From positions 1-64,000 of the forward strand of contig FP929003.1 of assembly GCA_000196815.1 (NCBI GenBank): 64,000 nucleotides of DNA, read 5' to 3'. The notes below the pieces were generated by a model. The model searched no databases, had not been told where the DNA came from, and worked only from the letters and a program-made list of their open reading frames with translations. This document shows, one piece after another, positions 1,521 to 36,027 of the stretch. The position numbers and the translations under genes are program-made. Origin of the DNA: Nitrospira defluvii (GTDB taxonomy: Bacteria > Nitrospirota > Nitrospiria > Nitrospirales > Nitrospiraceae). Every line of letters starts with the position of its first letter. Positions within the stretch are counted from its first letter, which is position 1.

Positions 1521-2651
1521 ATGAAGGTACGCATCGGACGAGAGGAATTGTTGACGGGATTGCAGCGGGTGCAGGGTGTCGTTGAAAAACGAAACACCAT
1601 GCCCATCCTCTCGAACATTTTGTTGGAAGCCAAACACGACGGCGCTGAAATTGTCGCCACCGATCTTGAGATCGGCATGAGGGGTCTGTACAAGGCGACG
1701 GTCCTCGAAGCCGGCGGCGTGACGATTTCCGCCCGCAAGTTGTACGAGATCATCAAGGAATTGCCGAGCGGTGAGATCGAACTGACATCCGGCGACAACA
1801 ACTGGACGACGATCCAGTCCGGGAAGAGTCAGTTCAAGGTGGTCGGCCTTCCGAGCGGCGACTATCCGGCGCTGCCCTCTATCGAACGCGAGGGGCTGAC
1901 GCCCCTGGCCGGAGCGGGTCTGTTGGAATTGATTCGCAAGACGTTGTTTGCCGCCGGCGACAACGATGCGCGATACATCCTGAACGGCCTGCTCGTGAGC
2001 TTGACGACAACCGAAAAGAAAACCACGCTCCTGCGACTGGTCGGCACCGACGGCCATCGCCTGGCCGTGGCGGAGCGCGAAGTCGGTACCCCGAATGCGA
2101 AGCAGCCGGCCCAGGATATCAAAGCGATCATCCCGAAGAAGGCGGCGCAGGAAATGCGGCGTTTGCTGGAAGAGGGGGGCGACGAAGAGCCCTTGATCGG
2201 GTTCACCAAAAATCTCATGATCTTCCGCAAGAGCGGCCTCCTCCTCACCTCCCGCCTCATGGAGGGGAACTACCCCAATTACCAGCAGGTGGTCCCGAAA
2301 GAGAGCGGCAAGCGCATTGCGGTTAATCGCGGGCTGCTGGAAAGCGCGTTGCGACGGGTCTCGGTGTTGTCGAAAGACAAGGCGAATGCCGTGAAGGTTT
2401 CGTTTGCCCCCGGAGGCATGACCCTGTTTTCGAGCAATCCCGATTATGGAGAAGCCACGGAAGAATTGGTGGCCCGATATGAGGGCGAGGCGCTTCACAC
2501 AGGATTCAACGCCCGCTACCTCCTGGATGCCTTGAGCGTTATGGATGGAGAATCGGTCTCGTTGCAAATGGACACCGCCTTAAGCCCTTGCCTGATTCAG
2601 GAGGCCGAGAGTCCCGGATTCAAATGCGTCGTGATGCCGATCAAAATTTAG
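1521..2651 (+). CDS. dnaN: DNA polymerase III beta subunit (sliding clamp)
   Basis: The beta clamp forms a dimeric ring round DNA and gives Pol III its processivity. The 376-aa protein has the family's usual length and three-domain architecture. It starts MKVRIGREELLTGLQRVQGV and ends with a VVMPIKI-type C-terminus (family pattern MPIR/MPMR), which forms part of the last strand by the protein-binding pocket. An SD-like GAGGGAGA precedes the ATG. It follows dnaA directly in the same direction, the classic dnaA-dnaN pairing, and is probably co-transcribed with it. A palindromic repeat separates it from gyrB. Confidence 0.97.
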   Translation: MKVRIGREELLTGLQRVQGVVEKRNTMPILSNILLEAKHDGAEIVATDLEIGMRGLYKATVLEAGGVTISARKLYEIIKELPSGEIELTSGDNNWTTIQSGKSQFKVVGLPSGDYPALPSIEREGLTPLAGAGLLELIRKTLFAAGDNDARYILNGLLVSLTTTEKKTTLLRLVGTDGHRLAVAEREVGTPNAKQPAQDIKAIIPKKAAQEMRRLLEEGGDEEPLIGFTKNLMIFRKSGLLLTSRLMEGNYPNYQQVVPKESGKRIAVNRGLLESALRRVSVLSKDKANAVKVSFAPGGMTLFSSNPDYGEATEELVARYEGEALHTGFNARYLLDALSVMDGESVSLQMDTALSPCLIQEAESPGFKCVVMPIKI

Positions 2652-2670
2652 GAATCGGAATGTCTTTTTA

Positions 2671-2793
2671 CAGGATGCTCACAATGGCTGAACGGCAAGG
2701 CGGCCGCGAGCGTAGGGTCGAGGCGTACCCCTGCGGTACGTTGAGGAACTGCACGATGCGAGAATGCCGCCGGCGGACGTGTTCAGCATCCTG
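2671..2793 (+). repeat. Palindromic intergenic repeat, copy 1
   Basis: This is one of six copies of a dispersed repeat in the window. The ends are a perfect 9-bp inverted repeat, CAGGATGCT at 2671-2679 and AGCATCCTG at 2785-2793. Near the middle is a small hairpin, GTACC-CCTGC-GGTAC, inside the shared core GAGGCGTACC...GGTACGTTGAGG. A second shared block, GCAAGGCGGCCGC, lies on the left arm and GAGAATGCCGCC on the right. The element fills most of the dnaN-gyrB gap and stops 11 bases before the gyrB start, so gyrB's ribosome-binding site abuts its right end. It has no coding potential. Confidence 0.85.
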
Positions 2794-2804
2794 GTAGGAG
2801 TTGA

Positions 2805-5279
<2,475 letters not shown>

Positions 5280-21948: not shown

Positions 21949-22590
21949 GTGAAGATCGCATTGATCGGTGCCAGTGGGTTTGTGGGCTCGGCCATTCTGA
22001 AAGAGGCCTTGGGGCGTGGGCACGAGGTGACGGCCATTGTTCGCGATCCCGAGAAGTTGCAGCCGCATGCCAACCTACGCCCTCAGAAAGGCGATGTCTA
22101 CACTGCTGACGACGTGGCTCGTTTGGTCGCGGGTCATGATGCCGTGATCAGTGCCTTCAATCCGGGCTGGGGCAATCCGGACATCTACAATCTTCAGGTA
22201 AAGGGCGCGCAAGCCATCATCGATGGTGTGAAGAGGGCCGGCGTGAAGCGATTGTTATTCGTAGGAGGCGCCGGCAGCCTGGAAGTGAAGCCGGGTATCC
22301 AGGCCTTGGATCTGCCGGATTTTCCCGCCGAGTATAAACAGGGCGCGCTCGCAACCCGAGAGGCCCTGAACATGCTGCGCAGGGAATCGGACCTTGAGTG
22401 GTCGTTTCTCTCTCCCTCCGCCGATCTGTCGCCAGGGCCACGTACCGGGAAGTTCCGGCTCGGGAAGGATCAGATGCTTGTGGATACGAACGGAACGAGC
22501 CGCATCTCGACCGAGGATTATGCGATGGCGATGATCGATGAGGTCGAGCACCCCACCCATGTTCGGCAGCGCTTCACGGTGGGGTATTGA
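21949..22590 (+). CDS. NAD(P)H-binding (atypical SDR, YwnB-like) protein
   Basis: This 213-aa cytoplasmic protein has an extended-SDR fold. It starts at a GTG, KIALIGASGFVGSAILKEAL, with the GxxGxxG dinucleotide motif. RDPEKLQ and GHDAVISAFNPGW are typical of the YwnB/COG2910 group, as is WSFLSPSADLSPGPRTG. The group lacks a standard YxxxK and may bind NADP(H) as a sensor or reduce an unknown substrate. GGGAGGTACCC precedes the GTG. It is followed by a membrane NADH-dehydrogenase-like protein, 28 bases downstream. Confidence 0.85.
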   Translation: MKIALIGASGFVGSAILKEALGRGHEVTAIVRDPEKLQPHANLRPQKGDVYTADDVARLVAGHDAVISAFNPGWGNPDIYNLQVKGAQAIIDGVKRAGVKRLLFVGGAGSLEVKPGIQALDLPDFPAEYKQGALATREALNMLRRESDLEWSFLSPSADLSPGPRTGKFRLGKDQMLVDTNGTSRISTEDYAMAMIDEVEHPTHVRQRFTVGY

Positions 22591-22618
22591 GGCGAAAACG
22601 GATCCCGGGGTCCGGTTC

Positions 22619-23938
22619 ATGGATCGAACTGGGGACATGCCTATACGTGGTGTGCAGATTCCGAGGGTCGTCATCGTCGGCGGGGGGTTCGGAGGGCTCT
22701 ATGCGGCCAAAGGCCTGTCGAATGAGGCGGTGGCCGTCACCCTGATCGACCGCAAGAACCATCACACCTTTCAACCCCTGCTCTATCAGGTGGCGCTGGG
22801 CGTGCTGTCTCCCGGCGAAATCGCCTCCTCGCTTCGCCGCATCCTGCAGCCCGCGCGCAATCTGCACACCATCTTGGGCGAGGTGGTTGGGATCGACGTC
22901 GCCGCCCGCAACGTGCAACTCAACGACGGCGCGCTGGTGGCCTATGACTATCTGATTCTCGCCGCCGGAGCCCGCCATGCCTACTTCGGCCATGACGAAT
23001 GGGAGGCCGATGCACCGGGCCTGAAGACGATCGAAGACGCGGTCGAAATCCGAAGCCGTTTGCTCCTGGCGTTCGAGCGGGCGGAACAGAAGGCGCAGCT
23101 CACGGGACGGGACGAGCCGTTGAGTTTTGCCGTCATCGGCGGGGGGCCGACCGGTGTGGAATTGGCCGGGGCCATCGCCGACCTCGCGCGGTTGGCGCTG
23201 GCCAAGGATTTCAAGGCCATCGACACGATGCAGGCACGTGTCCGCCTATACGAGGGCGCCTCACGCATTCTCGGGACCTATTCGGAAGACTCATCGCGCA
23301 AGGCTGCCGAACAACTGGAGCAGCTGGGCGTCGAAGTCTGCACCGACAGCCTCGTGCGAGCCGTGCAACCGGGTCGGATCCGGGTAGGAGACGAGTGGAT
23401 TGCCACGGACGTGACGATTTGGGCGACCGGGGTTGCGCCCTCCCCGCTCGCGAAGACACTGGGAGTAGCCACGGATCGTTCGGGGCGGGTGCCCATCGAG
23501 CAGGACCTCAGCGTGCCGGGCCATCGCGAAGTTTTCGTCATCGGTGACATGGCGGCCCTCGTCGATGCGAACGGTAGGCCGGTGCCGGGCTTGGCTGCTG
23601 CGGCTTTGCAGCAGGGGCAACAGGCGGCGCGCAACATCCTGAACGATTTACAGAGACGGCCACGCGAACCATTTCGGTACGTGGACCGGGGCAGCATGGC
23701 GACGATCGGCCACCACCGTGCGGTGGCGGAGTGTGGTCGATGGCACCTCTCCGGCATACCGGCCTGGTTGCTCTGGTCGGTGGTGCACGTGTTCTTGTTG
23801 ATTGGTTTCCGCAATCGCATCGCCGTGATGCTGCAGTGGATCTGGGCTTATGCCACGCGCAACGGCAGCAGTCCCCTCATCACTGACTTTCAGCGGACGG
23901 AGGCCAAGCGCGCCTTCCCCTCTACGCACAGCTCTTGA
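22619..23938 (+). CDS. Type II NADH dehydrogenase-like FAD oxidoreductase
   Basis: This 439-aa protein resembles NDH-2 / NAD(P)/FAD-dependent oxidoreductases. It has two Rossmann motifs, VVIVGGGFGGLYAAKGL and AVIGGGPTGVELAGAIADL, the DRKNHHTFQPLLYQVA signature of the NDH-2 group, and VIGDMAA near the C-terminal FAD site. The C-terminus has hydrophobic segments (AWLLWSVVHVFLLIGFRNRIAVMLQWIW) expected for membrane association. NDH-2 transfers electrons from NADH to quinone without pumping protons. Starts at 22538 or 22637 are alternatives; 22619 avoids a large overlap with the previous gene. Its last 17 bases overlap the broken hepT. Confidence 0.88.
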   Translation: MDRTGDMPIRGVQIPRVVIVGGGFGGLYAAKGLSNEAVAVTLIDRKNHHTFQPLLYQVALGVLSPGEIASSLRRILQPARNLHTILGEVVGIDVAARNVQLNDGALVAYDYLILAAGARHAYFGHDEWEADAPGLKTIEDAVEIRSRLLLAFERAEQKAQLTGRDEPLSFAVIGGGPTGVELAGAIADLARLALAKDFKAIDTMQARVRLYEGASRILGTYSEDSSRKAAEQLEQLGVEVCTDSLVRAVQPGRIRVGDEWIATDVTIWATGVAPSPLAKTLGVATDRSGRVPIEQDLSVPGHREVFVIGDMAALVDANGRPVPGLAAAALQQGQQAARNILNDLQRRPREPFRYVDRGSMATIGHHRAVAECGRWHLSGIPAWLLWSVVHVFLLIGFRNRIAVMLQWIWAYATRNGSSPLITDFQRTEAKRAFPSTHSS

Positions 23939-24169: not shown

Positions 24170-24557
24170 ACACGAGTCCGCGAGTCTTGATGTCGTTGAG
24201 TAACTCCCGGCGTTCTTCGTTCAGCCGTGCGTAATCGGAGTAGGCGTACATTTCGAACTCGGCCCTAGCGGAGTGCTCTCTGCTGTCGAGGATGCGGCCG
24301 GTGGCAATGACTTGCGCACGCATGACCGTGGAGGCTCGCTTAAGATCGAGCAGGTCCACATGTCGACCAAGTCGTGCGGCGAGTTCTTGAGCGAATTCGA
24401 AAAGCCGCTCACCGGGAAGCGTCTGCTTGGCAAGGATGGCGAGGTCAATGTCGCTGCCCCGGGTCGCATCGCCTCGGACCTCTGAGCCGAACTGGTAGAT
24501 GGCCACGAGGTTGGGAATGTGCTCCCGCAGAAACTGCACGATCGTCTCACTGTTCAT
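24072..24557 (-). CDS. MntA-like nucleotidyltransferase antitoxin (extended C-terminus)
   Basis: This 161-aa protein has a minimal nucleotidyltransferase domain of the MntA type. [20 protein letters not shown] contains the GS-x(n)-D-x-D active-site pattern (SDIDLAIL). [25 protein letters not shown] and a [15 protein letters not shown] end follow the family pattern. Usual members have about 139 aa, ending near VYG; this one runs on into [13 protein letters not shown] with no similarity, overlapping the broken hepT by 98 bases. A changed stop codon (TGA to TGG at VYG-W) would explain it. MntA adenylylates HepT to neutralise it. The gene is divergent from the sigma-54 activator gene. Confidence 0.8.
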
Positions 24558-24669
24558 GGAAGGAACTCCACTCCGGAGAGGCAGTATTCGTGACAGGGTA
24601 GGAAATGTCGAAGCGGGGCAAACGGGCAACGTTGCGCACGATCGGAGCTCAGGGCATACTAGGCCACGC

Positions 24670-26751
24670 ATGAGCCACGAACCATCAGCAGAGACGGTGT
24701 CTTCTAGCCTCGACCGGTATCGTGCGTTGTTGCGCGTGGCGGAGGCGATTGCCAACCACTCCGACTTGTCTGCACTGGTGCAGGATTTCGCGCGCTTGTT
24801 GCCGTCGGTCGTGCCCGTCAACTTCGTCGGACTCTCACTGCACGATCCTCGGCGCGGCGTCATGCGCCTCCATGCGCTGCGTGCGAATGTCCCCGCTGAC
24901 ATCATCGGCGGCCATGAAGGCGATCCGGCTGACACGCCGGCCGGCCTGGTGTGGGAAACTCAGCAGACGCTGTTGCTGAGCGATCTGTCCACGGAACGGC
25001 GCTGGCCTGACATGATCAGGTTGATGCGGGAAGATGGTGTGCAATCCTGTTGCCTAGTGCCGCTGACCTCTGCGGCCCGACGATTAGGGTCCTTGGAGTT
25101 TTCGAGCCTGGAACAGCACGCATACGGCATCGCCGATGTGGAATTGATGCAACAGATCGGGCGCCAAGTGGCGGTGGCGGTAGAGAATGTCCTCAATCGT
25201 GAGGCTGCGGAGGCCTCCCGGCGCGACGTCGAACGGCAGCGCGATCGCTTCAGTTTGTTGCTGCGGATGACAAATACGATTGCGTCGACGCTGGATCTTC
25301 GCGAGGTGTTCAAGGCCGTGAGCCTCTGTCTTCGCGAGATGGTGCCGCAGGAATACGCCAGCCTGATTCTGTGCGACGGCAAGAATGGCCGCGTCCGCCT
25401 CCATGCCTTGGACTTTCCTGAAAACCACGGCGCGTTGACGGAGGGGGCGATGTCTGATGTTGCCGGTTCTCTGGCCGGCCTGGCGCTGGAGCGGAGGCGC
25501 CCCGCGATAGCGAACACTCTGTCGGACCTGAAAGCGTTTGCTCACGCCGTGCCGCAGCTCCTGGTTATGAAGGGCTTCCAGTCCATGTGTTCCTTGCCCC
25601 TGTTGTCGCGCGATCGCGTGATCGGCTGCCTGAATCTGGCAAGTCATCAAGAGCAGGCGTTCAGCGAGCAGGATGTGGAATTCTTGAGCCAGGTGGCCGG
25701 GCAGATCGCACTGGCCGTCGACAATGCCTTGGCGTATCAGGAGATCCACACGCTCAAAGATCGATTGACCGAGGAAAAGTTGTACTTGGAGGAAGAAATC
25801 CGTGTGGAACATGGCTTCGACGATATCATCGGCGAGAGCCGTGCGTTGAAGCAGGTGTTGGGGCAGGTGGAGATCGTGGCGCCGACCGATGCGACGGTGC
25901 TGATCCTGGGTGAAACCGGAACGGGAAAGGAACTCATTGCCAGGGCGATCCATCGCCTAAGCGGTCGCCACGCACGCACGTTCGTCAAACTCAACTGCGC
26001 CGCGATCCCCACCGGCCTGCTGGAGAGTGAATTGTTCGGTCATGAACGGGGCGCCTTCACCGGGGCCATCGCGCAGAAGGTCGGCCGGTTCGAGTTGGCC
26101 CATGGCGGGACGATCTTTTTGGACGAGGTGGGGGAGATTCCGCTGGAGTTACAATCTAAGCTGCTTCGTGTGTTGCAGGAACAAGAATTCGAACGGCTCG
26201 GGAGCACCCGCACGATCCGCGTGGACATCCGGCTGGTGGCCGCCACGAACCGGGACCTGGCGAAGCTGGCCGAGGAGGGCCGGTTTCGAAACGATCTGTA
26301 CTACCGGTTGAACGTGTTTCCCCTTACGTTGCCGCCGCTTCGCGAGCGTCGCGAAGACATCCCCATGCTCGTGCGGTATTTCGCGCAGCACTATGCCGCG
26401 CGCATGAAGAAGAGCATCGAATCGATCCCTGCCCCGACCCTCGAAACCCTTTCCCGCTATCACTGGCCCGGCAACATTCGAGAACTGGAGAATCTGGTCG
26501 AGCGGGCCGTCATTCTGACCCAGGGGACGCAACTGCATGTGCCGCTGCAGGAACTGAGGCTGGTGGAACCGGAGCGCGCGGCTGCGTCCCCAACCTTGCA
26601 GGATGCGGAACGCCAGCAGATTCTTCGTGTCCTGCGAGAGACGAAGTGGACGATCGGCGGACCGCATGGCGCGGCGGCTCGCTTAGGTTTGAAGCGCACC
26701 ACCCTCACGTCCAAACTCAAAAAGCTCGGCCTCTCGCGCCCGAGAGAATAA
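24670..26751 (+). CDS. Sigma-54-dependent GAF-AAA+-Fis transcriptional activator
   Basis: This 693-aa activator has two GAF sensory domains (about 1-180 and 180-370), a coiled linker ([18 protein letters not shown]), an AAA+ domain and a C-terminal Fis HTH. Walker [16 protein letters not shown], the GAFTGA loop (HERGAFTGA) that touches sigma-54, and [11 protein letters not shown] are all intact. [10 protein letters not shown]-type ([20 protein letters not shown]) marks the end of the AAA+ domain. GAF activators of FhlA or aromatic-responsive type bind small molecules. It lies between the cresol cluster and the exporter operon, and sigma-54-like promoters lie at 17258 and 33160. The start at 24670 was chosen because earlier residues do not look like a domain. 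Confidence 0.92.
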
Positions 26752-26845: not shown

Positions 26846-27286
26846 ATGAAGATGCAGAGCACGGTCAGGGTGGCGATTGGAACGCTGGTCATTGCCGGGG
26901 CGCTGGTCGGTGCCGGGTGTCACCGACACCATACGCCGACGGAGCGAGCCGACTGGATGACGGGGAAGATCGCCAAACATCTGGACTTGGATGATCAGCA
27001 GAAGGCCAAGCTGGCCGCCGTGAAGGACGAAGCGATGGCCGTCCGCGCGGAGTCGGAGAAGGAGCGCAAGGCGACCATGGAAGAGGTCATCGCTCAGGTC
27101 CAGAGCGACCGGTTGGATCAGGCCAAGCTGGCTCGTCTGTTTGAGCAGCACCAAGCGGGACAGACCCGCCTGATGCAACGCCTGTTGCCCAAGCTGGCGG
27201 AATGGCATGGGACCCTGCGGCCCGAACAGAAGGCGGAGGCCGTGGAGCACCTCCGCAAGTGGATGGAGCGTTACGGAGACCACTGA
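26846..27286 (+). CDS. Spy/CpxP-like periplasmic protein (paralogue A)
   Basis: This 146-aa secreted protein has a hydrophobic N-terminus ending GALVGAGCHRHHTPTERADW. A Cys follows the signal, although the residues before it do not match a standard lipobox well. The mature part is helical and rich in Lys/Glu/Gln, with a LDLDDQQKAKLAAVKDE helix and a LRPEQKAEAVEHLRKW end that resembles the LTxxQ-type Spy/CpxP motif. The family binds unfolded periplasmic proteins or metals. It is the head of an operon with a YbhGFSR-like exporter, only 3 bases before the next start. The closest relative in the window is at 35590-36027. Confidence 0.85.
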   Translation: MKMQSTVRVAIGTLVIAGALVGAGCHRHHTPTERADWMTGKIAKHLDLDDQQKAKLAAVKDEAMAVRAESEKERKATMEEVIAQVQSDRLDQAKLARLFEQHQAGQTRLMQRLLPKLAEWHGTLRPEQKAEAVEHLRKWMERYGDH

Positions 27287-27289
27287 GTC

Positions 27290-28393
27290 GTGACCCTTCG
27301 GACCTCGACAATTGCCGCGGCCGTCCTTGCATCGGTGCTGATCGTCGGATACGTGATCCTCGATCGGCTGGTATGGCAGGACGGCTTCCCGGAGGGACTG
27401 ATCCAGGCCAATGGACGGATCGAAGGCGATCATGTCACCGTGGCCAGCAAGTTTTCCGGGCGCCTCGTAGACCTCGCGGCGCGCGAAGGAACCGAGGTTC
27501 ACAAAGGCCAGGTGCTGATCCGGTTAGACGACGCCCAAACGAGCGCGAAGGTCGATCAAGCCGCGCGGCTGGTGGACAGTTTGATGGCGCAGGTGGAAGC
27601 GGCCCATACCGCGCTCGCGGTCCTGAACCTCGAAGTGCCTCTGAACATCGAGGCGGTGGGGGCCAAAGTCGCAAGCATGCGCGCCGTCATCCGGAAGGCA
27701 CAGGCGGTCGAATACGAAGCCCGCCGGGACACCGACCGCATCCGGGCCCTGCTTCCCGAGCAGGCGGTGTCGCAGCAGCAAGTCGATCAGGCTGAGGCCC
27801 GCTGGAAAGTGGCTGTCACGGAGATTGCCGTGGCGAACGCCGCCCTTGACCAGGCGAGCAAGGAGCTCGCGCAGGCCGAATTGGGGTGGCAACGAATACG
27901 ATCGAAAGAAGCGGAGGTCGCGGCCCTCGAACGGCAACGCGACCAAGCAGATGCGACACTCGCGGAAGCCCGCAGCGTACTCGACGACCTGACGATCGTG
28001 GCTCCGACGAACGGCACGGTGACCACTCGCATGGTGGACGTCGGAGAGGTCGTGGCGCCCGGCGCGCCCCTGCTCGAATTGGTCGATCTCGACCGCCTCT
28101 ATCTGCAGGTCTATGTTCCGGAACTCCAAATCGGGAAAGTCCGCCTCGATTTGCCTGCCCGCATCCATACGGACGCGTTTCCCGACCGGTCGTTCGAGGC
28201 GACGGTCCGGTACATCGCCTCGAAAGCGGAATTCACGCCGAAAGAAGTTCAGACCCCGGACGAACGGGTCAAGCTGATCTATGCCGTTCGGCTCTATCTC
28301 ACCGAGAATCCTGACCATCGGCTGACGCCGGGTCTGCCGGCTGACGCGATGATCCGCTGGAAGGACGACGTGGCCTGGTCGAAACCCCGATGA
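27290..28393 (+). CDS. HlyD/YbhG-like membrane fusion protein
   Basis: This 367-aa periplasmic adaptor starts with GTG, then TLRTSTIAAAVLASVLIVGY, an inner-membrane anchor. The lipoyl/barrel-sandwich half follows (GRIEGDHVTVASKFSGRLVDL, then VHKGQVLIRLDD). A long coiled-coil hairpin (about 80-230, rich in Ala/Glu/Gln) precedes the second half-lipoyl motif, LDDLTIVAPTNGTVTTRMVDVGEVVAPG. The adaptor links the inner-membrane ABC part to an outer-membrane channel, which is not encoded here. It starts 3 bases after the Spy-like gene, and its stop overlaps the ABC gene by 4 bases. Confidence 0.92.
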   Translation: MTLRTSTIAAAVLASVLIVGYVILDRLVWQDGFPEGLIQANGRIEGDHVTVASKFSGRLVDLAAREGTEVHKGQVLIRLDDAQTSAKVDQAARLVDSLMAQVEAAHTALAVLNLEVPLNIEAVGAKVASMRAVIRKAQAVEYEARRDTDRIRALLPEQAVSQQQVDQAEARWKVAVTEIAVANAALDQASKELAQAELGWQRIRSKEAEVAALERQRDQADATLAEARSVLDDLTIVAPTNGTVTTRMVDVGEVVAPGAPLLELVDLDRLYLQVYVPELQIGKVRLDLPARIHTDAFPDRSFEATVRYIASKAEFTPKEVQTPDERVKLIYAVRLYLTENPDHRLTPGLPADAMIRWKDDVAWSKPR

Positions 28394-30369
28394 CGAGGCC
28401 CGCTGCATCCCCGCCGGAAGTGGTTGTCCGTGTGTCCGGCTTCGTCAAGCGCTACAAGCAGCATCGTGCGGTCGACCGCCTGGACCTCACCGTCCAGAGG
28501 GGTGAGATCTACGGACTCATCGGACCGGATGGTGCGGGCAAGAGCAGCGTGATGAAAGCGATCGCCGGGGTGTTGCGGTACGAAGAGGGATCCGCCGAAG
28601 TGTTCGGGACCCTTGTGGACTCCGAGCGCGCGGCGGAGCGGGTAAAACCGCGCATCGGATTTCTCCCGCAGGGATTGGGGCTCAACCTCTACCCTGAACT
28701 CTCCGTCGAAGAAAACATCGACTTCTTCGCCAGGCTGCGGCTGGTCCCGGAGCCTGAACTTCGCAAGCGCAAGTCCCGGCTGTTGGCGATCACCCGCCTG
28801 GACCGCTTTCGCGGCCGGTTGATGAAGCAGCTCTCGGGCGGAATGAAGCAAAAGCTCGGCTTGATCTGTACGCTGATCCATGAGCCGGAGCTGGCCATCC
28901 TGGACGAGCCGACGACCGGCGTCGACCCTGTCTCGCGGCGGGACTTCTGGGCCATTCTTGCCGAATGGCAGGCGGACAAGGGCATGACCGCACTGGTGTC
29001 GACCGCCTACATGGACGAAGCGGCCCGCTTTCACCGGCTCTCGTTTCTCTCTCATGGGCGGGTGCTGGCATCGGGCACGCCCGCAGCAGTTCAGTCACTG
29101 GTCCCGGGCCTTGTCGTCACCTTCGAATCGAGCCCGCAACTGGAAGCGGTGGCCCGCCTGAAACACCGGTATGCCCAAGTTGAATCCCTGGGCCCCTTAC
29201 TGCACGTGTTCACGCCAGAACGGGAGCCGGAAGCCGCCGTCGCGGGGATCCGGCACGCGCTGGAAAATTTACCGCTCGAGCATGTCCGCACGGATGAGCC
29301 GGAGTTGGAAGATGTCGTGGTGGCGCTGCTCTTGAAGGAACGAGAAGAACAACCGGGTGTGTCGGCAGGATCGGACCACTCCGCTCGCCCTGCGGGCAGG
29401 CAGCAGCTCGACGGACTGGCCGTCGAGGCCAAGGAGCTCATTCGGGACTTCGGTTCGTTTCGAGCCGTGGATCGGGTCAGCTTTGACATGAAGCAAGGTG
29501 AAATCTTCGGGTTGCTGGGCGCGAACGGGGCAGGCAAGACGACCGTCATCAAGATGCTGACCGGAATTGTGCCTCCGACGGCCGGAGAGGGGCGTGTGGC
29601 CGGCGCGGATATGCGCACGGCGGGCGGCGCGATCAAGGAGCGCATCGGCTACATGTCGCAAGCGTTCTCCCTCTATCTGGACCTGACCGTCATTGAGAAT
29701 ATCCGACTGTTTGCCGGTATCTACGGGTTGGCTCGGCGAGAGGCCCAGCAACGGATGGAGTGGATCGTGGAGATGGCCGGCCTGACCGGCTATGAGAATG
29801 ATCGGACGGGTCGCCTTCCCATGGGTGTGCGGCAACGTCTGGCGTTGGGTTGCGCGCTCGTTCATAGCCCACGGGTGCTGTTTTTGGATGAACCGACGTC
29901 AGGAGTGGACCCCATCGGCCGTCGGCGGTTCTGGGAGCTGCTGTCACGGTTGGCCCGCGAGGAAGGGGTCGCGATTCTCATTACGACGCACTATCTCAGC
30001 GAAGCGGAGCATTGCGATCGCCTGGCCCTCATGTATGCCGGACGCATCGTGGCCGAGGGAACGCCGGCGCACCTGAAAAGACAGGTCGAGCGGGACATCG
30101 GGCAACTCATGGAGATTGTCGCCGATAAGCCGGGGCTCGCACTCGGGCACGTAGTGGCAGCCGGGTTCGCCGGCGCGGCGCTCTTCGGCACCAAGATCCA
30201 TGTGCTCTCGCGTGATCCGGGCCGCGACGAGGGACGTCTTCGGGATGTCCTGGCCCGCTCCGGGATTGCGGTCGAAGCGGTGCGGACGCGGATGCTCAGC
30301 CTGGAGGATGTCTTTGTGTCCAGGGTGATGGCACTGGAACAGGCGGCGCAAAAGGAGGTGTCAGCCTGA
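28390..30369 (+). CDS. YbhF-like ABC transporter ATP-binding protein, two NBDs
   Basis: This 659-aa protein has two ABC ATPase domains. Domain 1 has Walker A GPDGAGKSS, signature LSGGMKQKLGL and Walker B ILDEPTTGVDP. Domain 2 has Walker A GANGAGKTT, but its signature reads LPMGVRQRLAL instead of LSGGxxQ, with Walker B LDEPTSGVDP. The degenerate second signature may make one ATP site non-hydrolytic. The tandem layout matches YbhF of the YbhFSR exporter of E. coli. It lies between the adaptor and two permeases, and starts with ATG overlapping the previous stop. Confidence 0.93.
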   Translation: MTRPAASPPEVVVRVSGFVKRYKQHRAVDRLDLTVQRGEIYGLIGPDGAGKSSVMKAIAGVLRYEEGSAEVFGTLVDSERAAERVKPRIGFLPQGLGLNLYPELSVEENIDFFARLRLVPEPELRKRKSRLLAITRLDRFRGRLMKQLSGGMKQKLGLICTLIHEPELAILDEPTTGVDPVSRRDFWAILAEWQADKGMTALVSTAYMDEAARFHRLSFLSHGRVLASGTPAAVQSLVPGLVVTFESSPQLEAVARLKHRYAQVESLGPLLHVFTPEREPEAAVAGIRHALENLPLEHVRTDEPELEDVVVALLLKEREEQPGVSAGSDHSARPAGRQQLDGLAVEAKELIRDFGSFRAVDRVSFDMKQGEIFGLLGANGAGKTTVIKMLTGIVPPTAGEGRVAGADMRTAGGAIKERIGYMSQAFSLYLDLTVIENIRLFAGIYGLARREAQQRMEWIVEMAGLTGYENDRTGRLPMGVRQRLALGCALVHSPRVLFLDEPTSGVDPIGRRRFWELLSRLAREEGVAILITTHYLSEAEHCDRLALMYAGRIVAEGTPAHLKRQVERDIGQLMEIVADKPGLALGHVVAAGFAGAALFGTKIHVLSRDPGRDEGRLRDVLARSGIAVEAVRTRMLSLEDVFVSRVMALEQAAQKEVSA

Positions 30370-31520
30370 ATCTGCAACGAATCGGCGCCGTGGCGCTCAA
30401 AGAATGGAAGGAGACCACCAGAGACCGGCTGTTCCTGCTGTTGGCGTTCTTGTTGCCGGCCCTGTGGTTGGTGGTATTCGGGTACGGCTTGAATCTGGAT
30501 GTCGAAAACATTCCGTTCGCGGTCCTGGATCGGGATCACAGCGAGTTGAGCCGGGACTATCTCCACCGGTTCATGCAGTCGCGATATTTTTCGTTTCAGG
30601 GGTATGCCGACGATGAACGCGCCCTTGATCGCCTGTTGACCGAGACGAAAATCCGGGCGGCCATCATCGTTCCCGAGCGGTTCCAGGAGCAGTTGGCGGC
30701 GGGAGAACCGGCCTCCGTGCAGACCTTGCTCGACGGGGCCTTTCCTCTTCATACGGATATCGCCAAAGGCTATGTCATTGCCATCAACCAGGCGTTCACC
30801 GAGGAGCGATTGATCGAGTACCTGCGCCGAACCCGTGGTCTTACTCAGGAGCAGGCCGGTGCGCTGGTGCGTCCGCTGACCGTCGAGGTGCGATATCTGT
30901 ACAACGAGGAAGTCCGGAGTACCTGGTCCATGGTGCCGGCGCTGGTCATGTTCACGCTGATGCTCGCCTCGCCCCTGCTGACGGCGCTTGGGGTCGTGCG
31001 GGAAAAAGAAACGGGTTCGATTTACAACATCTATAGCTCCACCGTGAGCCGCGCCGAATTCCTCACCGGCAAGCTGCTTCCCTATATCGTCATCTCACTC
31101 GTGAACGTCCTTGTGTTATGGCTGATGGCCGTCGGCCTGTTTCAGGTGCCCTTTAAGGGAAACTTCCTTCTGTTCTTTTCGGCGTCGGTTCTATTCGTGT
31201 GCTGTACCACGGGGATCGGCCTGCTGATTTCTCTGCTGGTGCAGACGCAAATGGCGGCGCTGATTATCACGATGGTCGTGGCGATGATCCCGACCATTCT
31301 CTTTTCCGGTCTCTTGGTGCCGGTGGCTTCGCTCACAAGAGGTGCGAAGGTACAGGCGCATCTGTATCCTGCCATGTATTACACCAACATCGTGCGGGGA
31401 AGTTTTCTGAAGGGCGTGGGCGCGGACGTGCTGTGGACCGACCTGCTGGCGCTGGCGATGTTTGCCGTCGCATTGAGCGGACTTACGTACCGGCTCTTCA
31501 CCAAGAGGCCGAAGACATGA
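30366..31520 (+). CDS. YbhS/R-like ABC-2 permease 1 (non-standard CTG start)
   Basis: This permease of the ABC-2 type has 384 aa if it starts at the CTG of 30366. An N-terminal helix (LFLLLAFLLPALWLVVFGYG), a long periplasmic domain and a C-terminal block of about five helices fit the family. The ATG/GTG in the reading is GTG at 30390, which has no ribosome-binding site. AAAGGAGGTG at 30351-30360 ends 5 bases before CTG, overlapping the previous stop as CTGA, and gives NLQRIGAVALKEWKE, the usual beginning of this family. I take the CTG start as more likely. A second permease follows. Confidence 0.85.
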   Translation: MNLQRIGAVALKEWKETTRDRLFLLLAFLLPALWLVVFGYGLNLDVENIPFAVLDRDHSELSRDYLHRFMQSRYFSFQGYADDERALDRLLTETKIRAAIIVPERFQEQLAAGEPASVQTLLDGAFPLHTDIAKGYVIAINQAFTEERLIEYLRRTRGLTQEQAGALVRPLTVEVRYLYNEEVRSTWSMVPALVMFTLMLASPLLTALGVVREKETGSIYNIYSSTVSRAEFLTGKLLPYIVISLVNVLVLWLMAVGLFQVPFKGNFLLFFSASVLFVCCTTGIGLLISLLVQTQMAALIITMVVAMIPTILFSGLLVPVASLTRGAKVQAHLYPAMYYTNIVRGSFLKGVGADVLWTDLLALAMFAVALSGLTYRLFTKRPKT

Positions 31521-31530
31521 GAGCTGAGGC

Positions 31531-32685
31531 ATGACGGCGCGGCAGCAGGCAGTCACGTGGGGGCGGCGGCTCGCGGCGATGACGTGGAAGGAAATCCTGC
31601 AACTGTCGCGCGACGTGCCGCTGTTGTTGTTTCTCTTGTATTCGTTTTCACTCTCGGTGGTGGTCAGCGGGGCCGGGATCACGATGCAGCTGACCAATGC
31701 GGAGTTGCTGGTGCACGACGCGGATCATAGTCACTCGTCCCGCGAGCTGATCCATCGGTTTCAGCTCCCCTATTTCTCCTTCGCCGGGGAGATCAGCGAT
31801 CCGCGCGAGGGGCTCCGGCAACTGGACCAGGGCAGAGTGATGTTGCTGTTGGAGATTCCGCCACGATTTCACGAGGCCTTGATGAGCGGAGAACGGACAG
31901 CGGTGCAAGTCCTCGTCGATACCACCAATGCACCGCAGGGTCTCTCGGCAGCCGGGTATAGCGTGCGAATCGCCGGCCTGTTCGGGAGCGAGACGGGCCT
32001 GGCCTCGGCGGGTCTTTCCGGAGCAGAGGCAGCCATGCCGCGGGTCTCCAGCGCCCATCGCGTCTGGTTCAATCCCACCCAGGATGAACGATGGTTTCAG
32101 TCCATCGCCCATGTGTTACGCATGACGACGATCTTTGCGGTGTTGTTGCCGGCGGCTGCGCTGGTCCGTGAAAAGGAACGGGGCACGGTGGAACAGTTGC
32201 TGGTATCGCCGCTGTCCCCCTTTCAGATCATGTTTGCGAAGGTGCTGGCGATGTCCGGGGTCATCCTCATCGCGCTCAGTCTCGCCCTGTATGGCGTGTT
32301 GCACCCTGTCTTTCACGTGCCGATGAAGGGTTCGACCGGGCTCTTTTTTCTGCTGACCACCTTGCATGTGTTCACGACGGCCGGATTTGGGTTGGTGGCG
32401 GCGACCATCGCAAAGAACCAGGCGCAAGTAGGCATGATGACGCTCTTCGTCGTGGGCCCGATGCTGTTGCTGTCGGGCATTACCTCGCCGTACGAATCGA
32501 TGCCGAAGTGGGTGCAGACGGTCATGACGTTTTCCCCGTTGCGGTACTACATCGACATTACCTACGGCGTGATGCTGAAAGGGGCAGGCCTGGATCTCCT
32601 CTGGAAGCCCGTCGGCGCCATGCTCCTCTTGGGAGGAGCGTTGTTCGGGTTTGGAATGTGGCGATTCCGACGGCAATTCCAATGA
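31531..32685 (+). CDS. YbhS/R-like ABC-2 permease 2
   Basis: This 384-aa ABC-2 permease has an N-terminal TM helix (LLLFLLYSFSLSVVVSGAGI), a periplasmic domain of about 150 aa (HDADHSHSSRELIHRFQLPYFSF) and a C-terminal membrane block with EKERGTVEQLLVSPLSPFQIM. It is paralogous to the previous gene in layout. With it and the two-NBD ATPase it would form the YbhFSR-like transmembrane exporter. The start follows 10 bases after the previous stop. The substrate is unknown; E. coli YbhFSR has been linked to drug and cation export. It ends the operon; the next 533 bases hold no gene I can support except the small protein at 33219. Confidence 0.92.
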   Translation: MTARQQAVTWGRRLAAMTWKEILQLSRDVPLLLFLLYSFSLSVVVSGAGITMQLTNAELLVHDADHSHSSRELIHRFQLPYFSFAGEISDPREGLRQLDQGRVMLLLEIPPRFHEALMSGERTAVQVLVDTTNAPQGLSAAGYSVRIAGLFGSETGLASAGLSGAEAAMPRVSSAHRVWFNPTQDERWFQSIAHVLRMTTIFAVLLPAAALVREKERGTVEQLLVSPLSPFQIMFAKVLAMSGVILIALSLALYGVLHPVFHVPMKGSTGLFFLLTTLHVFTTAGFGLVAATIAKNQAQVGMMTLFVVGPMLLLSGITSPYESMPKWVQTVMTFSPLRYYIDITYGVMLKGAGLDLLWKPVGAMLLLGGALFGFGMWRFRRQFQ

Positions 32686-33088
32686 GCCGATAGCCTCGCC
32701 GCCCGTGTGCCACTCTCTGACAGTCGAGCACGATGGATCGGATCGACGTGAAGCATGGACCGATCACCGAGGCGGCAAACGGTGGGAGAGCGCAACACAA
32801 TCTCAACCACTGGAAGACCACAGGATGGCTGTGGTTCATCCACCGCCAGGTATTACCGGGATGCCTGTTGTGAGCGACGCGCAGGACATCTTCGAGTTCA
32901 GCGATCGATGAGCCTCATCCTCTAGCCGACCGACCAACCGTCTCTGCGCCATGGGTCCCACGGGGCAGAGGCGCGACAACCCACGATCTCAAAAGTCCCG
33001 AAGCGTAGTCCTCGACCGGTTCTCTGCCCTCCCTGACGATCTCCTTCGTCACCGTCGCATCGTCACTCAATGACTCAGGCGGATGTGA

Positions 33089-33174
33089 CCTGTTGGTGAT
33101 CAACAGGGTTTGCCTGTTGTTTCAATTGGTTACGGATATCAACGGCACAGGCAGCGAAGTGGAATGACCTTTGC
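33089..33174 (+). promoter_or_regulatory. Alternating CCTGTTG heptamers plus sigma-54-like promoter
   Basis: Three heptamers in alternating orientation are spaced by 5 bases: CCTGTTG at 33089-33095, CAACAGG at 33101-33107 and CCTGTTG at 33113-33119. Adjacent units are perfect inverted repeats, a layout expected of an upstream activating site for a dimeric activator. A sigma-54-like promoter, TGGAATG-ACCT-TTGC, follows at 33160-33174, with GG and GC 12 bases apart as required. The next gene starts at 33219. The 32686-33088 part of the gap holds nothing I can support. Confidence 0.55.
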
Positions 33175-33218
33175 CATTACCTGAAATAGCGCTGCATGAG
33201 GGATCGGGAGGTGAGGCC

Positions 33219-33350
33219 ATGAAAGACATGACGCTGTGGGGCTGGTGGTACGGAATGTTCGTGACCCTGCCGCTCTTCGTGGCAGGGCTGTTCCTGAAGG
33301 ATCGACTGGCGAGTGCGGTTCCGCAACGGGTGCGGAGCCACCGACGGTAA
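33219..33350 (+). CDS. Small membrane protein, 43 aa
   Basis: This short gene reads MKDMTLWGWWYGMFVTLPLF, then VAGLFLKDRLASAVPQRVRSHRR. It has one hydrophobic segment (about residues 6-26), a Trp-rich start and a basic C-terminal tail, so it is likely a single-pass inner-membrane protein with its tail in the cytoplasm. GGGAGGTGAGGCC precedes the ATG. It is the first gene after the sigma-54-like promoter, 21 bases before the second DoxX gene, and probably forms an operon with it. I do not recognise a family. Confidence 0.7.
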   Translation: MKDMTLWGWWYGMFVTLPLFVAGLFLKDRLASAVPQRVRSHRR

Positions 33351-33371: not shown

Positions 33372-33878
33372 ATGTACGGCTTTTTCAAAACAGATGAGTC
33401 CTGGGCGGGTTTGATTCTTCGGGTGGTGCTGGGCGGCGTGATATTCGCGCACGGCGCTCAGAAACTATTGGGCTGGTACGGAGGGTTCGGGTTCGAGGGC
33501 ACCATGGGATTCTTTACTCAGAAGATGGGCCTCCCTTGGCTGGTCGCATTTCTCGTGATCATCGGTGAATCCATCGGCAGTCTGGGCTTGCTGGCCGGCC
33601 TGCTTACCCGGTTCACGGCGGCGAGCTTCATCGTGATCATGCTGGGCGCGATCATGACCGTGCACCTGCCGCAGGGGTTCTTCATGAACTGGTTCGGACA
33701 GCAGACCGGTGAAGGGTTCGAATTTCACCTGCTCGTGATCGGCATGAGTCTGGCGTTGCTGGTCGTCGGCGGGGGCAAGTGGTCGCTCGACGGTTTGATT
33801 GCCAGATGGCTGGGTGAGCCGTCGGCGGTTCAGCCCTCGCAAACAGGCAAGCCGGCCTATGCGTTCCGGACGTTGTAA
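33372..33878 (+). CDS. DoxX family membrane protein (paralogue B)
   Basis: This 168-aa DoxX family protein has four predicted helices and is clearly paralogous to the protein at 9878-10324: YGFFKTDESWAGLILRVVL, FAHGAQKLLGWYGG, GTMGFFTQKMGLPWLVAFL and LTRFTAASFIVIMLGAI correspond piece by piece. It has an extra C-terminal tail (WLGEPSAVQPSQTGKPAYAF). AAGGAGGTGTGAC precedes the ATG. It lies behind the alternating heptamer site together with the small membrane protein. Unlike the first copy it has no quinone-stress operator, so the two copies may answer different signals. Confidence 0.9.
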   Translation: MYGFFKTDESWAGLILRVVLGGVIFAHGAQKLLGWYGGFGFEGTMGFFTQKMGLPWLVAFLVIIGESIGSLGLLAGLLTRFTAASFIVIMLGAIMTVHLPQGFFMNWFGQQTGEGFEFHLLVIGMSLALLVVGGGKWSLDGLIARWLGEPSAVQPSQTGKPAYAFRTL

Positions 33879-33917
33879 GAGTCATTCAGAATCGCCGTGA
33901 ATGGAGACCCGGACACC

Positions 33918-34205
33918 ATGCTCAAAATTACGGTGTCGAACAACAATGCAGGGACCACCTACGGTCTATCCGGGCGGTTGGTGGGTCCCTGGGTCGAAGA
34001 GTTTCGGCAATGTTGGCTCCAGGCGGAATCAGGCGGAACGGTCCCCTGCCATGTCGATCTCCGGGAAGTGACCTTCATCGATGAGGCGGGAACCACGCTG
34101 CTGTCTCAGATGTCCCGCGAGGGGGTCACCATTCAGGCGTCAGGCTGTCTGACGAGGGCCATCGTGCAGAATTTAGGCAAGACGGGCGTTCACCATCACG
34201 GATGA
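33918..34205 (+). CDS. STAS-domain (anti-sigma-antagonist-like) protein
   Basis: This 95-aa protein resembles a single STAS domain: LKITVSNNNAGTTYGLSGRLVGPWVEEFRQCW, then HVDLREVTFIDEAGTTLLSQMSREGV. The Ser of the canonical DxxG(S/T) phospho-site region appears as FIDEAGTTLL, so a Thr is available. The family partner kinase is not in the vicinity. The start could be the GTG at 33897; ATG 33918 was chosen because GGAG lies upstream and the longer form adds no domain residues. It lies between DoxX and the repeat-protein gene in the second stress cluster. Confidence 0.7.
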   Translation: MLKITVSNNNAGTTYGLSGRLVGPWVEEFRQCWLQAESGGTVPCHVDLREVTFIDEAGTTLLSQMSREGVTIQASGCLTRAIVQNLGKTGVHHHG

Positions 34206-34218
34206 AGGGAGTCAAACG

Positions 34219-35136
34219 ATGAGACACACAATGGTTATTCTCGGTTCAATGGTTCTCAGCTTGTCGATGGCGGTGTCCTATGGGCAAGCCGCCGAAAGCG
34301 GGGGCAAGAGCGCGACGCACATGAAGGTCAGCGGAGTGGTATCGAATGTGGCGTCAGGCATCACCACCGTGAAGACCCCCTGGGGAACGATGAAGATCGC
34401 GTCCGCGCTCACGCCCAAGAATCTTGAGGTGGGGGAAGAAATCGAGATGCAGGTCAATGAAAACAATGCCGTGATCGATGTCCATCGGAAGGGAGACAAG
34501 GCCCATAGTCATCGCTTCGTGACCGGCAACCTGGCCTATGCCTCGCCGGATAAGAAAGAAATCAAAGTGTGGACGCCTGAAGGAGAGAAGGCCATCGATG
34601 TGCAAACCGGAAAGTCCAAGTTGTCTGCCTTGGAGGAAGGAGCCCCGGTGACGATCGAGTTAAACGAAGCGGGAAAGATGATCGACATCCATCGTTTCAC
34701 GGTCGAGATGAGCTTCGACGAACACCCGCGCACGAAACCCGGCTATGTCATTCAGGTGGATGGCACGGTCGTCAAGTTTGATTCGAGCCTGGCCTACGTG
34801 AAGACGCCGGCCGGACAGTACACGCTCTTGAAGAAGTATGCCCCGGCCGATGCGGCGGTCGGCGATCACGTGTCCCTCTGGATCAATGAAGAGGGTATGG
34901 TGATCGATGTGCATGGAAAAGATAAGGCCAAGGCCGGGACCCATCGGCTGATCTTCGGCAAGTTGATCCGTACCGGTCCCAACAAGAATCAGATTAAGCT
35001 CGCCACGCCGGAGGGCGAGAAGGTGTTTCCGCTGGAGCGGATGGAAATAAAGACCAAGCCGATCGCCGACGGAGACCATATCGTCGTCGAGCTGAACGAA
35101 GAAGGAACCGTCATCGATCTGCGGAAGGCGCAGTAA
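34219..35136 (+). CDS. Four-unit periplasmic repeat protein (family A)
   Basis: This 305-aa protein has a signal peptide (about 1-24, cut near GQAAE). The mature part is four units of about 60-75 aa, each ending N(E)-x-G/N-x-VIDVH or VIDLR: NENNAVIDVH, LNEAGKMIDIH, INEEGMVIDVH and LNEEGTVIDL. Units 1 and 3 share TxxVKTP-W/A-G, while units 2 and 4 share THR/SHR starts, P(E)GEK and LNE ends, suggesting duplication of a two-unit ancestor like the protein at 21380. I do not know a function. Periplasmic location and a neighbouring STAS and DoxX gene suggest envelope stress. Confidence 0.8.
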   Translation: MRHTMVILGSMVLSLSMAVSYGQAAESGGKSATHMKVSGVVSNVASGITTVKTPWGTMKIASALTPKNLEVGEEIEMQVNENNAVIDVHRKGDKAHSHRFVTGNLAYASPDKKEIKVWTPEGEKAIDVQTGKSKLSALEEGAPVTIELNEAGKMIDIHRFTVEMSFDEHPRTKPGYVIQVDGTVVKFDSSLAYVKTPAGQYTLLKKYAPADAAVGDHVSLWINEEGMVIDVHGKDKAKAGTHRLIFGKLIRTGPNKNQIKLATPEGEKVFPLERMEIKTKPIADGDHIVVELNEEGTVIDLRKAQ

Positions 35137-35259: not shown

Positions 35260-35559
35260 ATGATGCCGGTGACATTGATCAATGTGTTTTCGGTCCCCGC
35301 TGCCAAGGAACCTGAGTTTGTGCAGTGGTGGCAGGGCGTCAAGGAGCACATCACGAAGCAAGAGGGGTTCATCAGCGGCACATTCCACAACAGTATCAAG
35401 GCGGAGAGCAGATTCAACTTCATCAATGTTGCGATCTGGGAGAATGAAGAGGTGTATTGGAAGGCCTACGAAACGAGCGTCACGCCGATGAAGGCCAAGC
35501 TCGGGGAACTGGGGGTTGAAATGACTCCCGCGCTCTATCGCGTCGCCTTCGAGTACTGA
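35260..35559 (+). CDS. ABM-domain (antibiotic biosynthesis monooxygenase-like) protein
   Basis: This 99-aa protein resembles the dimeric alpha-beta-barrel family that includes ABM monooxygenases and haem-degrading proteins: VTLINVFSVPAAKEPEFVQWW, EGFISGTFHNSIKAESRFNFINVAIWEN and YWKAYE. No catalytic residue can be assigned from sequence alone, and many members have unknown function. The ATG at 35260 follows GGAGGTGC. A longer reading from 35155 starts with Pro/Arg-rich residues unlike the family. It belongs to the second stress cluster. Confidence 0.75.
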   Translation: MMPVTLINVFSVPAAKEPEFVQWWQGVKEHITKQEGFISGTFHNSIKAESRFNFINVAIWENEEVYWKAYETSVTPMKAKLGELGVEMTPALYRVAFEY

Positions 35560-35589: not shown

Positions 35590-36027
35590 ATGAGGAGGCA
35601 CAAGACATTCAGGGTGGTTGTCGGGACGCTAGTCCTCGCCGGGGCGCTTGTCGGAGCCGGGTGTCATCGTCATCATACCCCGTCCGAGCGCGCCGACTGG
35701 ATGACGAGCAAGATCGCCAAACATTTGGATCTGGACGACCAGCAGAAGGCGAAGCTCATGGCCGTGAGGGATGAAATGGTGGCGGCCCGCGCCGAGTCGC
35801 AGCAGGAGCACAAGGCAATCATGGAAGACGTGATTGCTCAGGTGAAAAGCGACCGGTTGGACCAAGCCAAGTTGACGCAACTGATGGAGCGGCACCAGGC
35901 CGAGCAGAAACGCGTGATGCAGCGCTTGTTGCCGAAGGCGGCGGACTGGCATGCAACCCTCCGACCGGAGCAGAAGGCGGAAGCCGTGGAGCACATCCGC
36001 AAGTGGATGGACCGGTATGGAGAGTAG
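35590..36027 (+). CDS. Spy/CpxP-like periplasmic protein (paralogue B)
   Basis: This 145-aa secreted protein is a close paralogue of the one at 26846-27286. GALVGAGCHRHHTP, then ERADWMTSKIAKHLDLDDQQ and a LRPEQKAEAVEHIRKWMDRYG end are nearly identical, with the variable part in the middle. The signal ends in GAGC, as in the first copy. The helical mature part resembles Spy/CpxP chaperones. CAAGGAGGATCGT precedes the ATG. Here it lies beside a repeat protein and DoxX rather than beside an exporter, so the two copies may serve different stress circuits. Confidence 0.85.
   Translation: MRRHKTFRVVVGTLVLAGALVGAGCHRHHTPSERADWMTSKIAKHLDLDDQQKAKLMAVRDEMVAARAESQQEHKAIMEDVIAQVKSDRLDQAKLTQLMERHQAEQKRVMQRLLPKAADWHATLRPEQKAEAVEHIRKWMDRYGE

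Follow-up and report, generated by a model that had tools for sequence, protein, structure and literature searches.

The window described here is a 64,000-base stretch covering positions 1–64000 of the 4,317,083-base single-contig genome of Nitrospira defluvii, and its subject is a gene for a small protein of the Spy/CpxP kind, designated Spy1. On one side of Spy1 lies the gene for a sigma-54-dependent activator, and on the other are those for a periplasmic adaptor, an ATP-binding cassette (ABC) ATPase, and two ABC-2 permeases (P1 and P2). There follows a cluster encoding a DoxX-family protein, a STAS-domain-like protein, a predicted exported protein (H34219), an ABM-family protein, and Spy2, a paralogue situated 8.3 kb downstream of Spy1 (Table 1). 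The first-pass annotation of this DNA had placed a Spy-like gene 3 bases ahead of the adaptor and exporter genes; these coordinates and this order were verified, and Pfam and NCBIfam matches back each name. The end of Spy1 and the adaptor start are separated by 3 nucleotides (nt), and the ATPase gene overlaps the adaptor gene by 4 nt; spacing and strand suggest a common transcript for Spy1 and the adaptor.

Twenty-nine genomes of the genus were searched, and Spy was found in 21 of them. An orthologue of the activator (at least 79% identity) is likewise present in 21, of which 20 also carry Spy (Fisher test, p = 4e-5, kinship not corrected); the exceptions are G001, which has the activator and no Spy, and G010, in which Spy lies on a short contig and no activator was found. 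Of the 21 Spy genomes, 19 have Spy and the activator in one locus. The remaining two are G010, whose Spy comes from a contig of 4.9 kb in an assembly that is 88% complete, and G044, apparently a mixed assembly (contamination 5%, three matches to Spy) and less reliable in its counts. Close exporters, defined by an adaptor of at least 84% identity, occur in 15 of the 29 genomes (the G008 copy is truncated), and divergent ones, with an adaptor of 67–70% identity, in 4 more; the association of Spy with the exporter gave p = 7e-4 (Fisher test, again without correction for kinship). Six of the 21 Spy genomes (G003, G010, G011, G013, G021, and G024) lack a close exporter, and in G011, G013, and G024 the genes run activator, DoxX, STAS, (H34219), ABM, Spy, with the exporter absent. 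In G009, G018, and G044 the exporter is found on the sigma-54 side, following DoxX, STAS, ABM, and Spy. Spy accompanies the sigma-54 activator and DoxX-STAS cluster more constantly than it does the exporter. With moderate confidence, Spy is read here as an envelope protein with the CpxP/Spy fold, probably lipidated, that belongs to a genus-level sigma-54 stress locus in which the exporter is an optional and exchangeable output.

The activator possesses a Sigma54_activat domain, a Fis-type helix-turn-helix, and the GAFTGA motif, a hallmark of sigma-54 activators, and RpoN is encoded in the genome. Its start codon is uncertain, as a longer open reading frame (ORF) begins at 24499. A sigma-70-like pair, GTTGCG ... 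CATACT, lies in window positions 24600–24664, about 10 nt before the activator ATG, with CATACT present in 12 of 14 rows by visual count; this position would suggest a leaderless transcript. An activator paralogue (56% identity) was also seen near another HlyD/ABC-2 exporter in G014 (G014:C175) and G017 (G017:C90), and because both genomes are without Spy, the pairing of activator and exporter may be older than the link to Spy.

The sigma-54 promoter consensus is GG-N10-GC. Each of the 23 DoxX copies checked, which come from 21 genomes (two each in G009 and G044), has an element of this form ending in TTGC upstream of it. A palindrome, C/GTGACGA-N5/6-TCGTCAC, precedes the element in all 23, at a start-to-start distance of 127 nt in G000 and 143–147 nt in the other 22. 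Search expressions for both were written after viewing the 15-row alignment in which the elements were first seen. Searching the two strands of the window gave a single match to the promoter expression. In the whole genome the exact pattern likewise has one match, and 6 more are found at one mismatch (control, 2). The palindrome has 44 genomic sites at no more than one mismatch, 2 of them exact, against 4 for a control read backwards. A strict promoter lies within 300 nt of 1 of the 44 sites, at 33034; 5 of them, 33034 included, have any GG-N10-GC ending in TTGC nearby, and the other exact palindrome, at 2583018, has none. A wider regulon acting through the palindrome was considered and rejected, with no second target among the 44 sites (sites with more than one mismatch were not searched). 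A dedicated activator–promoter pair, with predicted binding of the activator to the palindrome, is the best reading of these elements. The leader between promoter and DoxX contains a 43-amino-acid ORF of the MKDMTLW... type in at least 13 of the 23 copies, for which Pfam returned no match.

A mechanism can be proposed on this basis. The activator GAF domains would sense a cytoplasmic signal, and the activator would bind the GTGACGA-N6-TCGTCAC palindrome and switch on the DoxX-STAS-(H34219)-ABM-Spy cluster from its conserved sigma-54 promoter. On the periplasmic side, the Spy product may hold or monitor stressed proteins, or metal, with the RbbA/Ybh-type exporter serving as a swappable output module that would expel a toxic compound. 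In G009, G018, and G044, the exporter is situated downstream of the sigma-54 promoter, behind DoxX-STAS-ABM-Spy, and also has its own promoter-like element. In the window lineage it stands behind the activator and Spy1 and would probably be read from the activator's promoter, with Spy2 remaining in the sigma-54 cluster.

Table 1. Features of the locus, in window coordinates.
Feature	Position	Strand	Basis or remarks
Sigma-54-dependent activator, FhlA-like	24664..26751	+	GAF domains, AAA+ with GAFTGA motif, Fis-type helix-turn-helix
Spy1, LTXXQ/CpxP-Spy fold protein, 146 amino acids	26846..27286 (stop TGA 27284-27286)	+	Pfam
HlyD-type periplasmic adaptor, GTG start at 27290	27290..28393	+	HlyD_D23 (Pfam)
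ABC ATPase, two nucleotide-binding domains, YbhF-like layout	28390..30369	+	ABC_tran in two stretches (Pfam)
ABC-2 permease 1 (P1), closest to RbbA C-terminal permease	30390..31520	+	ABC2_membrane_3 (Pfam)
ABC-2 permease 2 (P2), closest to YhhJ	31531..32685	+	ABC2_membrane_3 (Pfam)
Predicted activator-binding palindrome, CTGACGA-N6-TCGTCAC	33033-33052	+	Sequence
Second TCGTCAC half-site, predicted activator binding	33060-33066	+	Sequence
Predicted sigma-54 promoter, TGGAATGACCTTTGCC (GG-N10-GC)	33160..33175	+	Sequence conservation
Small hydrophobic ORF, 43 amino acids, in leader between sigma-54 promoter and DoxX	33219..33350	+	Conservation
DoxX family membrane protein	33372..33878	+	Pfam
STAS-domain-like protein	33897..34205	+	STAS_2 24.8 bits, under Pfam cut-off 29.2
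Predicted exported protein (H34219)	34219..35136	+	No family above cut-off
ABM-family protein (antibiotic biosynthesis monooxygenase domain)	35263..35559	+	Pfam
Spy2, LTXXQ/Spy-like paralogue, 77% identical to Spy1	35590..36027	+	Pfam, sequence comparison

An NDH2-like gene (22538-23938) lies upstream of the activator in the window.

Spy1 matches the Pfam family LTXXQ at 40.9 bits (cut-off 24.3, E 3.6e-10), which places it in the LTXXQ/Spy-CpxP superfamily, and, marginally, Metal_resist at 30.7 bits (cut-off 29.2, E 3.9e-7); its LTXXQ-like motifs are LDLDDQQ and LRPEQ. It scores beneath the NCBIfam cut-offs both for the Spy equivalog (PRK10455; 31.6 vs 174 bits) and for the CpxP family (33.8 vs 148 bits). 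An AlphaFold2 model built from 17 aligned sequences (mean predicted local distance difference test score 81; residues 1–25 below 50) has predicted core helices at residues 31–45, 50–86, 92–121, and 126–144. Among the best 50 of 328 Foldseek matches to this model in the Protein Data Bank (PDB) were CpxP (3itf/3qzc), Spy (5wo3/5wo2), ZraP (3lay), CnrX (3epv), and NccX (4clv), with template modelling (TM) scores over the target of 0.47–0.69 (Spy 5wo3, 0.69; CpxP 3itf, 0.68; CnrX 3epv, 0.61). A second structure aligner returned ZraP 3lay (Z 8.4, root-mean-square deviation 2.5 over 79 residues) and CpxP (Z 8.2, deviation 3.0 over 103 residues), the 50 matches that it listed being mostly unrelated helical proteins, with no Spy or CnrX chains. 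Pfam and, with less force, the predicted fold place Spy1 in the CpxP/Spy superfamily; it is not a close Spy.

The ratio of nonsynonymous to synonymous substitution rates (dN/dS) for Spy1 against six relatives is ~0.06–0.10, indicating strong purifying selection, and this ratio together with the recurrence of the Spy–adaptor pair marks it as a genuine gene. Cys25 is invariant in 17 of 17 aligned proteins and sits after a hydrophobic N-terminal, lipobox-like segment, and lipidation is therefore likely, but residue -3 of this lipobox-like segment is Gly in most aligned rows. A third LTXXQ-family match in the genome lies outside the window, at 3382601-3382879 (L003, L098; 27.2 bits). Pattern scanning of wider genome contigs yielded 16 loci, all from Nitrospira or Nitrospirales (two peptide patterns were used, which may miss distant relatives), and 72,556 plasmid records gave no tblastn match at E 0.01. 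No paper on this locus appeared among the titles listed in a literature search, most subscription journals being outside its reach.

The exporter had been assigned to the YbhGFSR type, an assignment that holds for its layout and not for most of its sequence. As in YbhGFSR, a single run of genes encodes an adaptor, a separate ATPase carrying two nucleotide-binding domains, and two ABC-2 permeases, each from its own gene. BLASTP comparison with seven E. coli K-12 proteins, however, placed the adaptor nearer to YhiI than to YbhG (130 vs 85 bits), P1 nearer to RbbA than to YbhS (224 vs 166 bits), and P2 nearer to YhhJ than to YbhR (201 vs 166 bits). The ATPase is about evenly related to both: it aligns with YbhF in one piece (414 bits, residues 10–569 of 659) and with the two domains of RbbA in two pieces (220 and 192 bits). 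PRK03598, which we take to be the YbhG family, is the best NCBIfam model for the adaptor (146 bits, cut-off 393), and RbbA is the best for the ATPase and permeases, again under cut-off. The exporter is Ybh-like in layout and mostly YhiI-RbbA-YhhJ-like in sequence (three of its four parts). None of the genome's 27 OEP-domain matches falls inside the window, and no outer-membrane partner was found next to the operon. YbhFSR is described as exporting tetracyclines and ethidium and as having a role in Na+(Li+)/H+ transport (PMC7190983); to assign such substrates to the window exporter would be guesswork.

The two sides of the window locus have different affinities. In a nucleotide identity profile, the activator side resembles G042, G006, G016, and G008, and the exporter resembles G023, G020, and G019. 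Informative sites were counted for two groups of three relatives picked from this profile, and the ratios of activator-side to exporter-side support were 155:2 for the activator, 8:0 for the gap, 4:5 for Spy1, 15:74 for the adaptor, 4:166 for the ATPase, and 4:61 and 10:84 for the permeases. The switch of partner is located between ~26980 and ~27490, within Spy1 and the start of the adaptor gene; thus, in the window genome, the Spy–adaptor pair straddles a recombination joint. DoxX-STAS copies flank the Spy–exporter block on both sides in L042 and L094, an arrangement through which the exporter might be duplicated or lost.

More distant Spy relatives were found in G029 (39% identity), G038 (33%), and L087 (40%; Nitrospira sp. 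bin75). In G038 (L049) and L087, but not in G029, the genes after Spy encode an OmpR-family regulator and a HAMP histidine kinase. Directly before the Spy–regulator–kinase set of L087, at 1903-4038, is the gene for a protein resembling type-II NADH dehydrogenase that carries cNMP-binding and CBS domains. A bolder version of the preferred reading, offered only tentatively, is that a CpxP-type periplasmic sensor or chaperone, two-component-linked in distant Nitrospirales, was rewired here to a GAF sigma-54 activator with one recognisable target promoter and to DoxX/STAS/ABM. The exporter would then be a swappable cassette, and the Spy gene a homology joint through which lineages trade regulator and exporter halves.

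Several observations weigh against regarding the exporter as optional and Spy as part of the activator's locus. All 15 close-exporter genomes carry Spy. In 14 of them, the window included, an intact copy is the gene immediately ahead of the adaptor, with both on one strand, and in eight (G000, G006, G008, G016, G019, G020, G023, and G042) 3 nt separate its end from the start of the adaptor match. When exporter adjacency is treated as a label on a tree of 25 Spy protein sequences, it requires 5 changes, against a shuffled mean of 8.4 and with values as low in 7 of 500 shufflings. G001 has the activator, sigma-54 promoter, DoxX, and STAS with no Spy. As regards the fold, Foldseek gave nothing in the PDB at E 0.001, and helical bundles yield many unrelated structure matches. 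Finally, the activator–Spy1 gap of 11 genomes contains no GG-N10-GC ending in TTGC and no palindrome half-site, so that Spy1 and the exporter in the window are probably read from the activator's own promoter. Neither being visibly under a sigma-54 promoter, this counts against a simple activator-induced exporter. A sigma-54 promoter directly before Spy1 was accordingly rejected as a candidate in the 11 gaps examined; bare GG-N10-GC occurs there only in G000, G006, G016, and G042.

The pairing could also be explained by Spy1 being a dedicated accessory of the exporter that keeps the exported compound from harming the adaptor or the periplasm, with Spy2 a paralogue having another job. The frequency and 3-nt spacing of the pair speak for this, as do the strong purifying selection on Spy1 and the grouping of seven exporter-adjacent copies on the Spy tree (88/82, under the tool's starred level). 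The adjacent copies of G005, G008, G009, and G018, however, fall among Spy2-type (downstream) sequences, and the few label changes combined with this split placement indicate that adjacency is clustered, yet not of single origin on the Spy tree. Spy also persists without a close exporter in the six genomes named above, of which G003 and G021 carry a divergent exporter elsewhere, and none of the four divergent exporters (G001, G003, G012, and G021) has an adjoining Spy; G001 and G012 are without any Spy match, with only about 0.45 kb upstream of the divergent adaptor examined in G012. In G008 (L041 4548-5051), adaptor residues 1–146 run straight into residues 363–384 of permease 2—through either an internal deletion or an assembly fault—so that most of the exporter is missing while Spy is intact. 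Only a Spy remnant precedes the adaptor in G022, and a remnant is found in G020 too.

The junction itself is also variable. The Spy–adaptor gap is 43 nt in G004 and 128–140 nt in G005, G009, G018, G043, and G044, and all five genomes with the longer gaps have between the two genes a conserved promoter-like stretch, TGGCAA-N17-like and then CTACAGTGTCGACG (L038, L040, L042, L093, and L094). From its sequence, the stretch around CTACAGTGTCGACG looks like the exporter's own promoter, and the 3-nt junction may have originated by its loss. Together with the change of relatives inside Spy1 and the adaptor start, these points make a dedicated accessory unlikely. The Spy–exporter pair is real and conserved, but not fixed. 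The first-pass annotation, in which a periplasmic chaperone was tied to the exporter, is therefore partly supported: the pair is not restricted to one strain, the refuting condition that the annotation had named, and is found in 14 of the 15 close-exporter genomes, but the claim that Spy is fixed to the exporter is not supported, and the suggestions that Spy shields the adaptor or that the substrate damages the envelope received no support from the tests run here.

A metal-based explanation is considered doubtful: Spy1 and Spy2 would be periplasmic metal binders resembling ZraP and CnrX, and the locus a metal stress response with an exporter that disposes of a metal or metal complex. It draws on the Metal_resist match just over its cut-off, the fold matches to ZraP and CnrX, a His-rich stretch behind Cys25, the invariant residues His102 and His121, and the fact that ZraP is likewise under a sigma-54 activator (PMC4987338). 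The exporter, however, is of the ABC-2 type and not a resistance-nodulation-division (RND), cation diffusion facilitator, or P-type metal pump; His26–His29 are variable among relatives; and the 19 residues that separate His102 from His121 on a single predicted helix put them too far apart to form one site within a monomer. Besides Metal_resist, no metal-specific family was found among the cluster proteins scanned. Least probable of all is that Spy merely sits at a recombination-prone junction and that its closeness to the exporter is functionally meaningless: the recombination joint at Spy1 and the 5′ end of HlyD, the flanking DoxX-STAS modules of G009 and G044, the Spy remnants in G020 and G022, and the exporter's own promoter-like element in five genomes would fit, but the shared strand in 14 of 14, the identical 3-nt junction in 8 genomes, and the presence of Spy in 15 of 15 close-exporter genomes would not.

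On the preferred reading, Spy is part of a predicted stress circuit that runs from one promoter and has a defined activator site and defined output genes, in Nitrospira-type bacteria, for which few genetic tools exist. The locus also illustrates how adjacency in a single genome misleads, the exporter partner being optional and the regulator nearly constant. The pairing of a Spy-fold protein with a neighbouring sigma-54 activator is a parallel to ZraP–ZraR from another phylum.

Among known systems, CpxP–CpxRA shares the predicted fold (3itf, TM-score over target 0.68), and two of the three relatives at ~33–40% identity precede an OmpR-type regulator and histidine kinase; by contrast, no two-component genes were found among the window genes scanned beside Spy1. 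CpxP is, moreover, a soluble protein, unlike the predicted lipoprotein Spy1. The YbhGFSR and YhiI-RbbA-YhhJ systems of E. coli likewise comprise an adaptor, a two-domain ATPase, and two ABC-2 permeases, but the regulator neighbouring the window exporter is not CecR, and the window exporter has a Spy gene in front. CnrX of the Cupriavidus CnrX-CnrYH-CnrCBA system has a related fold (3epv) and is likewise small, facing the periplasm, and linked to an efflux pump (PMC7689651); it is, however, a transmembrane sensor that releases an extracytoplasmic function sigma factor for an RND pump, whereas the window locus has an ABC-2 exporter and a sigma-54 activator. ZraP–ZraSR of Enterobacteriaceae combines a periplasmic protein of the Spy/CpxP fold with a sigma-54 activator in the locus and a role in envelope stress (PMC4987338), but the window activator has GAF domains and no adjoining sensor kinase gene, the window protein is a predicted lipoprotein, and the locus adds DoxX, STAS, ABM, and an optional ABC exporter. 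By analogy, Spy1 would act more like ZraP under ZraR than like a dedicated exporter subunit—a likeness that does not by itself make it a member of the ZraP group.

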